64,000 nt of DNA from positions 1 to 64,000 of the forward strand of contig SZXW01000002.1 in assembly GCA_005862285.1 (NCBI GenBank), given 5' to 3'. Source of the stretch: Chlorobium sp. GTDB taxonomy: Bacteria > Bacteroidota > Chlorobiia > Chlorobiales > Chlorobiaceae. The notes beneath the pieces were generated by a model. The model saw nothing but the letters and a program-made list of their open reading frames with translations. It did not search any database and had not been told where the DNA came from. Position 1 is the stretch's first letter. Each line of letters opens with the position of its first letter. Of this stretch, positions 3,873 through 29,194 are shown in pieces. The translations under genes and the position numbers were made by a program.

Positions 3873-4054
3873 TACATCCGCGCAACCCTTTGTGCTTGTA
3901 AGTATATTTTATTCAACGGCTTAGGCCTTTTCTTGCAGGGTTGGCTGTTCTCTTAATATGCCGTTGGAAAACTCGGGTTAAAATGATACCTTTAAGGTTC
4001 AAATTTGCAGGTGGTGTTTATTGTATGATGTTAAGTGCAGTAAATCCTTGAAGG

Positions 4055-4102
4055 ATGGTGCGCGCAATACCTGACTTCCGCCACAGGCAAGCAGCCGACC
4101 AT
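4055..4102 (+). promoter_or_regulatory. Possible S6:S18-binding leader of the rpsF operon
   Basis: Just upstream of rpsF an outer stem can form between ATGGT (4055-4059) and ACCAT (4098-4102). An inner hairpin forms between CCTG (4070-4073) and CAGG (4084-4087), with CCG in its loop (4078-4080). The known rpsF leader recognised by the S6:S18 complex has a stem-loop presenting a conserved CCG, so this is a candidate autoregulatory site. I matched features by eye only; a covariance-model search would decide. Confidence 0.38.
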
Positions 4103-26222: not shown

Positions 26223-26294
26223 TCCGCGATAGCTCAACGGTAGAGCATGCGGCTGTTAACCGCAGGGTTGTAGGTTCGAATCCTACTCGCGGAG
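26223..26294 (+). tRNA. tRNA-Asn (GTT anticodon)
   Basis: A complete 72-nt cloverleaf: acceptor stem TCCGCGA/TCGCGGA (26223-26229 with 26287-26293), D arm GCTC/GAGC, anticodon arm TGCGG/CCGCA around loop CTGTTAA (anticodon GTT), 5-nt variable loop, T arm GTAGG/CCTAC around TTCGAAT, and discriminator G. CCA is not encoded. It is read opposite to the DUF177 operon and followed by a terminator. Confidence 0.96.
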
Positions 26295-26298
26295 CTAA

Positions 26299-26525: not shown

Positions 26526-27002
26526 ATGATGATGAAATACAGATTGATTTTCACAATTTTAGCAGGCTTTCTTGCTGTATCATCAATGCTGTTCACCGGA
26601 TGCAGTGACCAATATGTTGCTCCTTCAGGCAAAACGGCGGTTTCAAAGACCGCATTGCTGCATACTTCCTGGCGGGTGACGGTAATCAATGGATCGAGGG
26701 TTGTGTTCAGGCCCGGGCAGAAACTCGATGTATCGCTTGTTTTTTCAAAAGGCGGACAATTCAGCGGTACTACCGGATGCAACTATCTGAATGGTTCATA
26801 CGCGCTTAAAAAGGAACGGCTGAGCTTCAGTTCGCTTGCGATAACCCGTATGGCCTGTTCACCTCAGCTCATGGCTCAGGAACGGGAGTACCTCGGTGCA
26901 ATCCGTAAGGTTTCATCCTATGCGATTTCCGGAAACAGCCTGAAGCTGTTTAATGCAGAGGGCGGCAAGCTCATGGAGCTGATTGCGGTTACGTTTCCCT
27001 GA
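26526..27002 (+). CDS. META-domain (HslJ-like) lipoprotein
   Basis: 158-residue lipoprotein: signal helix followed by MLFTGCSDQY (lipobox Cys near residue 26), then a META domain. The META hallmark is FSGTTGCNYLNGSYAL followed by LSFSSLAITRMACSP. HslJ-type META proteins are linked to heat-shock or novobiocin tolerance in E. coli, but their biochemistry is unknown. The two-codon Met run at the start leaves the exact first residue open. The stop is only 6 nt from the repeat at 27008. Confidence 0.82.
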   Translation: MMMKYRLIFTILAGFLAVSSMLFTGCSDQYVAPSGKTAVSKTALLHTSWRVTVINGSRVVFRPGQKLDVSLVFSKGGQFSGTTGCNYLNGSYALKKERLSFSSLAITRMACSPQLMAQEREYLGAIRKVSSYAISGNSLKLFNAEGGKLMELIAVTFP

Positions 27003-27183: not shown

Positions 27184-27324
27184 TGTAAAGCATATGCGGA
27201 TTTATTTCGAGGATTGAAACTTCATGGCCGGAGAAAATGTTCATAAAATCATTGCAAGCGTTCGCTATTTTTTTATTTTGATGGAAAACCCTGCTGAACA
27301 GGGCATTTGAAAAAAATTTGACTC

Positions 27325-27414
27325 ATGCACAAAACGAACACGAACAACCTTCCTCAGAATAGCCTCGGGCTACTTCTACTGGGTATAATTGCCCGGAGGT
27401 GGGGTGCTTTTTAG
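27325..27414 (+). CDS. leuL: Leucine-rich leader peptide of leuA
   Basis: A 29-codon frame, ATG to TAG, ending LGLLLLGIIARRWGAF. It has four consecutive Leu codons (CTA CTT CTA CTG, 27370-27381) after two more Leu, then Ile-Ile. It lies 31 nt ahead of a terminator and about 100 nt ahead of leuA, the layout of ribosome-mediated attenuation. The Leu run lies in the loop of a hairpin (27363-27370 with 27391-27399), and the first codons (27330-27339) are perfectly complementary to 27414-27423. When charged Leu-tRNA is scarce the ribosome should stall and free the downstream antiterminator. No clear ribosome-binding site is seen. The symbol is given by analogy. Confidence 0.85.
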   Translation: MHKTNTNNLPQNSLGLLLLGIIARRWGAF

Positions 27415-27445
27415 TTCGTTTTGCACAGAAATGAAAAACAGTTTG

Positions 27446-27480
27446 AAAGCCGCCATCCTTCCAGGGTTGGAGGCTTTTTT
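27446..27480 (+). terminator. leuA attenuator terminator
   Basis: AAAGCC (27446-27451) pairs with GGCTTT (27472-27477), extended inside by CCA-CC with GG-TGG, and runs into six Ts. The same CCATC (27453-27457) can instead pair with GGTGG (27398-27402) at the end of the leader peptide frame, a plausible antiterminator. It lies about 35 nt upstream of leuA. Confidence 0.85.
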
Positions 27481-27511
27481 CGTTTAATGGACAAAAGGAG
27501 AGGATGAAGCA

Positions 27512-29194
27512 GTGAAGAAAATGAACTTCGAAAAGTACAAGGCATACCCGATGGTTCCCATTTCAGGCAGAACCTGGCCGGACAAGACAATAATCAGCGC
27601 ACCGATATGGTGCAGCGTTGACCTGCGCGACGGGAACCAGGCGCTTCCTGTGCCGATGAGCGTCGAAGAAAAGGTTGCCATGTTCCATTTGCTTGTTTCG
27701 GTCGGGTTCAAGGAAATTGAAGTCGGTTTCCCTTCCGCATCCGCGATTGAATTTGCGTTTGTGCGGAGACTGATCGAAAAGCAGCTTATTCCTGACGATG
27801 TTACGATTCAGGTGCTCACACAATCGAGGGAACATCTGATCCGGAAAACATTTGATGCCATCAGGGGAGCAAAAAACGCTATCGTTCATTTGTATAACTC
27901 TACCTCAACCCTGCAGCGCGATGTTGTTTTCCGAAAGAACAGGGAGGAGATCAAGGCTATTGCTGTCGAAGGTACTGCGCTTGTCAGGCGTCTGAAGGAT
28001 AAAAGCGGCAATCCGGGCATCCGTTTCGAATACAGCCCGGAAAGCTTTACCGGAACGGAACTGGACTATGCGCTTGATGTCTGTCATGCCGTCATGGATA
28101 CATGGGGGGCGACGGCGGAAGAGAAAGTCATTCTCAACCTTCCCTCGACCGTCGAAATGTCCCGGCCGAACATCTATGCGGACCGTATCGAATGGTTCTG
28201 CAGGAATATCAGACAGAGGGATGCCGTGCTGATCAGCGTTCATACCCATAACGACCGAGGAACAGCCGTCGCTGCTGCCGAATTAGCAGTCATGGCCGGC
28301 GCCGACCGTGTCGAAGGTGCACTGTTTGGAAACGGTGAACGGTGCGGGAATATGGATATCGTCATTATGGCTTTGAACCTTTTCAGCCAGGGGATCGATC
28401 CGAAACTGGATTTTTCCGAACTGCCGAGGGTACGGGAAGTTTATCGGAAATGTACCCGCATGGACATTCATCCAAGACATCCCTATGCGGGAGAACTGGT
28501 CTATACGGCATTTTCCGGTTCACACCAGGATGCGATCAGCAAAGGTATGAAAGCTAATGTTCAGTCATCCGGCGAATTGTGGGCCGTTCCGTACCTGCCG
28601 ATCGATCCGCGTGATGTCGGGTGCACCTATGAAGCGATCGTTCGTATCAACAGCCAGTCCGGAAAAGGAGGTATGGCTTACGTTCTGGAGACGGATTACG
28701 GTATCCAGATTCCGAAATGGATGCAGCCCGATTTTGCCGAGGCGGTTCAGGCCGTGGCAGACAGGACGGGTGTCGAGCTGTCGCCGGAACAGATCCATGA
28801 CCTGTTCTATTCCGAGTATGTGGCCTTGAAGGAGCCTATTCTCCTGAAGAAATGTCATATTGCCTGGGATGATATGGACCCCGATCGCAATGATGATGAA
28901 GCCACTTCGCTCAGCTGCATTGTGCAAATGGATGAAAAGGAATTCAGCTTCGATGCAAAAGGCAACGGCCCTCTCGATGCCTTTGCCAAAGGGTTCGTGA
29001 AAGCCAGCGGTCTTGAATTCAGTGTCGAGGAATATGCAGAGCACGCAATCGGTCACAGCGCGGGCGCAACGGCTATCGCCTATATCAAGATATCAACTTC
29101 CGACGGGCGCATTTCATTCGGCTCAGGGGTTGATTCGAACATCAGCCTCGCTTCGATAAAAGCCACCGTTAGCGCTCTGAACCGCCTTCCATGA
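27512..29194 (+). CDS. leuA: 2-isopropylmalate synthase, LeuA type 2
   Basis: 560-residue enzyme condensing acetyl-CoA with 2-ketoisovalerate, the committing step of leucine synthesis. The N-terminal catalytic TIM barrel has WCSVDLRDGNQAL, VGFKEIEVGFPSAS and the metal-site ISVHTHNDRGTAVAAAELAV followed by GNGERCGN. The C-terminal LeuA regulatory domain (residues ~435-560, GHSAGATAIAYIKI) binds leucine in relatives. Length and PISGRTWPDK fit the long type 2 form. The GTG at 27512 follows AAGGAGAGG; ATG at 27521 is an alternative. The leader peptide and attenuator upstream indicate control by leucyl-tRNA supply. Confidence 0.94.
   Translation: MKKMNFEKYKAYPMVPISGRTWPDKTIISAPIWCSVDLRDGNQALPVPMSVEEKVAMFHLLVSVGFKEIEVGFPSASAIEFAFVRRLIEKQLIPDDVTIQVLTQSREHLIRKTFDAIRGAKNAIVHLYNSTSTLQRDVVFRKNREEIKAIAVEGTALVRRLKDKSGNPGIRFEYSPESFTGTELDYALDVCHAVMDTWGATAEEKVILNLPSTVEMSRPNIYADRIEWFCRNIRQRDAVLISVHTHNDRGTAVAAAELAVMAGADRVEGALFGNGERCGNMDIVIMALNLFSQGIDPKLDFSELPRVREVYRKCTRMDIHPRHPYAGELVYTAFSGSHQDAISKGMKANVQSSGELWAVPYLPIDPRDVGCTYEAIVRINSQSGKGGMAYVLETDYGIQIPKWMQPDFAEAVQAVADRTGVELSPEQIHDLFYSEYVALKEPILLKKCHIAWDDMDPDRNDDEATSLSCIVQMDEKEFSFDAKGNGPLDAFAKGFVKASGLEFSVEEYAEHAIGHSAGATAIAYIKISTSDGRISFGSGVDSNISLASIKATVSALNRLP

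Follow-up and report, generated by a model that had tools for sequence, protein, structure and literature searches.

A probable ribosome-mediated leucine attenuator upstream of a type 2 leuA gene in Chlorobiaceae

The leu attenuator of Escherichia coli and Salmonella (leuL) shares two features with the locus described here: a 2-isopropylmalate synthase gene preceded by a short ORF with successive Leu codons, the rare CTA among them, and a terminator that competes with an antiterminator (a candidate one in the present case). Rfam holds a Leu leader family. For the Salmonella leu leader, PMC1183508 describes the CUA control codons as important for sensitivity, and it cites Carter et al. for the loss of sensitivity when three CUA codons in the leu leader were replaced. 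In the LEU element of Actinobacteria, as outlined in PMC1262725, the Leu codons pair with the leuA ribosome-binding site in a pseudoknot or an alternative hairpin. The leucine-rich attenuator peptide of Staphylococcus aureus, mentioned in PMC5794164, resembles the present case in being a Leu-rich leader peptide that acts on branched-chain synthesis outside the Proteobacteria, and the histidine leader peptides that precede hisS paralogues in bacilli resemble it in forming a leader-peptide system outside both the Proteobacteria and the Actinobacteria (PMC2965389). According to that 2010 survey, none was known outside these two phyla before its own Firmicutes case; the passage on Chlorobia in the same source concerns a T-box before hisS. 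A literature search that had most subscription journals outside its reach found no description of such an attenuator from Chlorobi.

Leader ORF, terminator and leuA2

The window analyzed is a stretch of 64,000 nucleotides from a Chlorobium sp., and the leader region and leuA2 described below lie on its + strand. Positions 27252-27512, which run up to leuA2, contain a promoter-like site, followed by the leader ORF of 29 codons with its Leu run and by an intrinsic terminator just 5' of the gene. The ORF (27325..27414) consists of 29 codons that read MHKTNTNNLPQNSLGLLLLGIIARRWGAF and a stop codon at 27412-27414. The Leu control codons (27364..27381), in which Leu is kept among relatives and CTA is enriched, are CTC, one Gly codon, and CTA CTT CTA CTG; these last four, in a row at 27370-27381, are followed by Gly and then by two Ile codons (27385-27390), so that the 29-codon frame with four Leu and then two Ile codons claimed in a sequence-only reading of this DNA is present, with Gly between them. 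The leader ORF ends 97 nt before leuA2 (27512..29194), which starts with GTG and encodes a 2-isopropylmalate synthase of type 2 (yeast type) of 560 amino acids. The product scores 855.6 bits against NCBIfam NF002991 (cut-off 455) and 734.5 bits against TIGR00970, the model for the yeast-type 2-isopropylmalate synthase (cut-off 697.4), carries three Pfam domains of 2-isopropylmalate synthase, and is 96% identical to the closest relative LeuA among Chlorobium and Chlorobiaceae records. leuA2 is a stand-alone gene downstream of the leader, and its enzyme belongs to leucine synthesis. The purine-rich stretch AAAGGAGAGG (27494..27503), as read from the sequence, resembles a ribosome-binding site and lies outside the hairpins. 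A tRNA-Asn gene is located upstream at 26223-26295, and an ORF at 26526-27002 sits between it and the leader. Elsewhere in the window, an S6-S18-Chlorobi ribosomal protein leader is found at 4005-4090 (Rfam RF03134, 49 bits, cut-off 47.4).

The putative leader promoter is composed of a -35-like element, TTGCAA (27252..27257), and a -10-like element, TATTTT (27274..27279), with a spacer of 16, from which transcription would start near 27286. Among the relatives, 74 of 77 have the corresponding TTG...TA pattern 5' of the leader at a nearly constant distance, as compared with 24% in shuffles; of the three that do not, G064 and G073 instead have a tRNA-Asn gene directly upstream. A stricter promoter scan of the window lists no promoter at 27252-27279. 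At the sequence level, the promoter-like site is 5' of the leader and not beyond 27480, where a start of transcription would, according to the sequence-only reading, have contradicted it.

The intrinsic terminator (27445..27480, -16.1 kcal/mol) comprises a stem, 27445-27459/27464-27478, and a T-run, 27475-27480; previously placed at 27446-27477, it was also picked up by a pattern scan of the window. The outer, or protector, stem connects a 5' arm inside the first leader codons (CAAAACGAAC, 27330..27339) with a 3' arm that begins at the last base of the stop codon (GTTCGTTTTG, 27414..27423). The perfect 10-bp match that had been claimed for this stem was confirmed, and none of 200 shuffles of the 3' region gave one as good. 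A 5-bp alternative pairing, 27398-27402/27453-27457, had also been proposed; it exists, with one G-U pair, but the candidate antiterminator to which it belongs is much longer and extends from segment 2 (the 5' arm, 27395..27411), which encodes the conserved peptide end, to segment 3 (the 3' arm, 27445..27461), which overlaps the 5' arm of the terminator. None of 200 dinucleotide shuffles of 27315-27490 folds as well as the natural sequence (z -3.12).

The locus is very probably a ribosome-mediated (leader-peptide) transcription attenuator for leucine upstream of leuA2. The logic of ribosome-mediated leucine attenuation, which the sequence-only reading had recognized, is supported by the conservation of Leu, the co-adapted outer stem and terminator and the promoter-like site upstream. 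None of the defining attenuator features tested failed, with the antiterminator and the upstream transcription start standing as candidate features and the response to charged tRNA as a prediction. Comparison between genomes, together with the sequence itself, shows the ORF and its selection for Leu, the terminator and outer stem, and the promoter pattern.

Conservation of the leader and its helices

A class-wide search identified a LeuA of the leuA2 type in 83 of 98 genomes, comprising 83 of the 86 genomes in family f1 and 0 of the 12 outside f1. Counting the window and 82 other genomes, 83 upstream regions were compared, of which 81 are complete and those of G081 and G008 are cut by contig ends. 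A Leu-rich leader and a terminator are present in 77 of the 81 complete regions, where the leader was taken as the most Leu-rich ORF, by the same rule in real and shuffled sequence. The leader is absent from G062 (L151), G032 (L166), G023 (L168) and G085 (L160): in G062 and G032 a terminator lies directly behind the same tRNA-Asn gene, G023 has a terminator only, and G085 has neither leader nor terminator. These four genomes, together with G081 and G008, were left out of the alignment (A1) and of the 77-genome statistics. A covariance model, R1, prepared from the 77 members of A1 has one strong match in each such genome, before leuA2; further matches lie in G008, whose region is truncated, and at a leader in G018 on a contig that stops shortly downstream. 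Fifteen of the secondary R1 matches were inspected as possible further copies of the element and were found to be ordinary terminators, tRNA neighborhoods and 3' ends of other genes. Transfer of the leader with leuA2 was also considered and rejected, as 31 distant leuA2 loci (L082, L083, L085-L109, L111-L113 and L115) have no comparable leader; the best candidates among them, L092 and L099, have 5 Leu in 8 residues and no T-run near enough for this terminator. Leader length ranges from 18 to 33 residues across the relatives, the leader of G020 being MNTVSNMLLLALSLTGLTCLRGSAL. In G075, G072, G033, G060 and G071 (L121, L122, L124, L125 and L126), the frame shifts at a gap of one base that follows the Leu run; the peptide ends earlier in these five genomes (RALWL, RAFWL, RALLL) and the RNA arms are retained.

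The leaders contain 4 to 10 Leu, with a mean of 7.4 and at least 4 in each, and Leu constitutes 26.8% of their residues, as compared with 3.0% for Ile and 3.4% for Val. At least 5 Leu within 10 residues are found in 71 of 77 leaders versus 41 of 1540 shuffled upstream regions scanned alike. In a set of 34 leaders with a common register, 33 retain Leu at codon 15, 32 at codon 16 and 29 at codon 17, and it is at these codons that third positions are most variable; across all of codons 2-19, the third-position excess is small, with mean entropies of 1.06, 1.07 and 1.24 bits by codon position in the same 34 leaders. CTA represents 15.4% of the 566 Leu codons in leaders versus 0.6% of 1231 in 30 leuA2 genes; it accounts for 1.9% of the 462 Leu codons counted in 13 genes from the genome of the window. 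By these comparisons, the leader Leu codons are selected as codons. The alignment upstream of leuA in relatives that the sequence-only reading had called for has been made, and in it the Leu run is conserved, drifting synonymously, and the outer stem and terminator are co-adapted; a lack of such conservation was the second outcome that this reading had named as contrary to it. The two Ile codons after the Leu run in the window (27385-27390) might point to an attenuator for branched-chain amino acids in general, sensing both Leu and Ile, but this appears improbable: Ile codons are not conserved among the leaders of relatives, Ile is missing from about 40% of leaders and forms only the 3.0% of residues noted above although every leader has at least 4 Leu, close relatives carry MI or FF in place of II, and the Ile/Val/Leu-rich leader of this genome is elsewhere, before ilvD.

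Co-adaptation of the helices was assessed in genera g1 and g2 by pairing the 5' arm of each genome with the 3' arms of other genomes in 2000 permutations. For the terminator, 0 of 2000 permutations were as good in g1, and likewise in g2; for the outer stem, the numbers were 0 of 2000 in g1 and 61 of 2000 in g2. Many g2 genomes have an outer stem of wholly different sequence in which GGTCAAC/GTTGACT replaces AACGAAC/GTTCGTT. When the outer stem is evaluated genome by genome in a free register, only 14 of 77 reach p 0.05. The inner stem of the sequence-only reading (27363-27370/27391-27399, 8 versus 9 nt with a bulged G) exists in the window but has no comparative support and is not co-adapted; it was rejected as a conserved helix, 1514 of 2000 permutations in g1 and 1987 of 2000 in g2 being as good. 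In column counts, 88.5% of terminator cells are paired and the covariation score is above that of all 500 shuffles; pairs with changes in both partners are not in excess. Terminators are common, and one remains in three of the four genomes that lack the leader (G062, G032 and G023), as would be expected of a constitutive terminator of upstream transcription that is accompanied by a chance ORF. This explanation is nevertheless very unlikely, given the conservation of Leu with synonymous change, the enrichment of CTA, the presence of the promoter pattern in the gap that separates the leader from the upstream gene, and the co-adaptation of an outer stem that has no part in termination as such.

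Covariation in the antiterminator is unsupported in g1 (1445 of 2000 permutations as good) and has little support in g2 (155 of 2000). Its columns have 86.2% of cells paired, a covariation score reached by 4 of 500 shuffles, and no excess of double changes. There is little scope for covariation because the 5' arm is mostly invariant, with G36, G38, T41 and T42 each present in at least 73 of 77 genomes. The duplex energy over the set beats 200 of 200 shuffle sets, whereas only 12 of 77 single sequences have z below -1.5. Because the antiterminator 5' arm codes for the conserved peptide end, this end can be accounted for without a function of the peptide, and it is best explained, and most simply, as the antiterminator arm rather than as a pause peptide; the additional pausing that had been attributed to the residues ARRWGAF found no support. 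The ORF is short, Leu-rich and widely conserved, properties that would also suit a functional small hydrophobic protein with incidental RNA structure. Such a protein is a most improbable explanation, as the peptide end follows the RNA arm (in the five genomes that shift frame, the end differs and the arm stays) and the length varies from 18 to 33 residues. At gathering scores, an Rfam scan of the whole window returned only tRNA and S6-S18-Chlorobi; relaxing the threshold to E up to 10 added only Phe_leader (22.7 bits versus a cut-off of 55, E 0.12), among chance families. The presence of conserved RNA segments outside the ORF gives scarcely any likelihood to a leader that binds a metabolite or protein (riboswitch, T-box or operator) and for which it would not matter whether the ORF is translated, since those segments are helix arms, the Leu codons are selected as codons, and Rfam gave no match at gathering scores and only Phe_leader, among chance families, at the relaxed threshold.

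Folding model of the switch

In the proposed leucine attenuator, a transcript started near 27286 and left untranslated would have its stop-codon region held by the outer stem, and the terminator (27445-27480) would form. When leucyl-tRNA is plentiful, the ribosome would reach the stop codon (27412-27414) and cover segment 2, and the terminator would again form. When leucyl-tRNA is short, the ribosome would stall on the Leu codons, the outer stem could not hold, and segment 2 (27395-27411) would pair with segment 3 (27445-27461) before the 3' arm of the terminator is made, allowing RNA polymerase to continue into leuA2. A response to leucyl-tRNA, this order of folding and a change in leuA2 expression are what we infer from this arrangement.

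The switch between terminator and antiterminator is a prediction in silico, in which the ribosome is treated as covering RNA and the covered lengths are assumptions of the model. In the window, the predicted terminator probability is 1.0 with no ribosome, 0.84 with the ribosome at the first Leu and 0.45 with it on the Leu run, returning to 1.0 at the stop codon; the means over 77 genomes for the same four states are 0.99, 0.77, 0.74 and 1.0. The stalled-state mean of 0.74 corresponds to a median of 0.99 and increases to 0.94 when the RNA between the ribosome and the terminator is shuffled. Stalled-state probabilities below 0.5 are obtained for 19 of 77 real sequences; in 15 shuffled sets, the number averages 4.1 and never exceeds 7. 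Even with the ribosome stalled, the model gives the terminator as the more stable end state for most genomes, suggesting that the antiterminator must act by forming first, that is, before the terminator. The sequestering of segment 3 under a stalled ribosome was discarded as stand-alone evidence, being predicted for 74 of 77 real sequences versus a mean of 68.5 of 77 shuffled ones. Upstream pairing of segment 3 is likewise predicted for 39 of 77 when no ribosome is present.

The ilvD leader and comparison with known systems

The same genome has a second LeuA, of type 1 (L198:10954-12525, G000:C1), whereas the type 2 enzyme stands alone behind the attenuator. The gene cluster of the type 1 LeuA has the order ilvD-ilvB-(ilvN)-ilvC-leuB-leuA-leuC-(leuD)-cimA, in which the bracketed names and the leuC subfamily are assigned by position. 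It is preceded by an ORF ending in RIGIVIPVVLPVVSIIIL and a stop codon before ilvD (L198:4624-4914, G000:C1); the further ilvD loci considered are L216-L245. In a side study that read 30 of 82 matching genomes, three of which were left out of the alignment, an Ile/Val/Leu-rich ORF (at least 8 such residues in 14) ending 108-119 nt before ilvD is present, as a raw count, at 24 of 30 ilvD loci, that of G073 among them. The ilvD leader is followed by a conserved hairpin of the GCCG-UCCCAAGUCC ... ACUUCGGGAACGGC type, which has no adjacent T-run and no Rfam match above chance. At L230, L237, L240, L241 and L245, most of the Ile/Val/Leu stretch is missing from the ilv leader and the hairpin is kept, and the hairpin may therefore have a role of its own. 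Tentatively, and with some doubt, we suggest that the Chlorobiaceae might run leucine synthesis via two leader peptides, a Leu-only attenuator on the lone type 2 LeuA and an Ile/Val/Leu-rich leader, with an unrelated hairpin that lacks a T-run, on the ilv-leu-cimA cluster with the type 1 LeuA; both would have arisen within the phylum, and the stem that links the stop codon with the first codons would make initiation a part of the former switch.

The element would extend amino-acid-sensing leader peptides to the green sulfur bacteria. It provides an RNA element without an Rfam match at cut-off that has 77 aligned members and natural losses, and its protector stem switches sequence, not pairing, between two genera. 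It also leads to a prediction of which 2-isopropylmalate synthase of the two would be governed solely by the supply of leucine.

The Staphylococcus aureus peptide belongs to the Firmicutes and is likened to the present leader by description only (PMC5794164), and the hisS leaders of bacilli differ from it in amino acid, gene and phylum (PMC2965389). In contrast to the LEU element, an intrinsic terminator is located here between the leader and the gene, and the stretch 27494-27503 is downstream of this terminator and outside the predicted helices. As compared with leuL, to whose leader no Rfam match was obtained here at E up to 10, the attenuator precedes one type 2 leuA gene rather than leuABCD, and a supported protector stem links the first codons to bases after the stop codon. 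As an RNA family, the leucine attenuator matches nothing in Rfam at cut-off; as a mechanism, it is of a known kind, like the enterobacterial leu attenuator.
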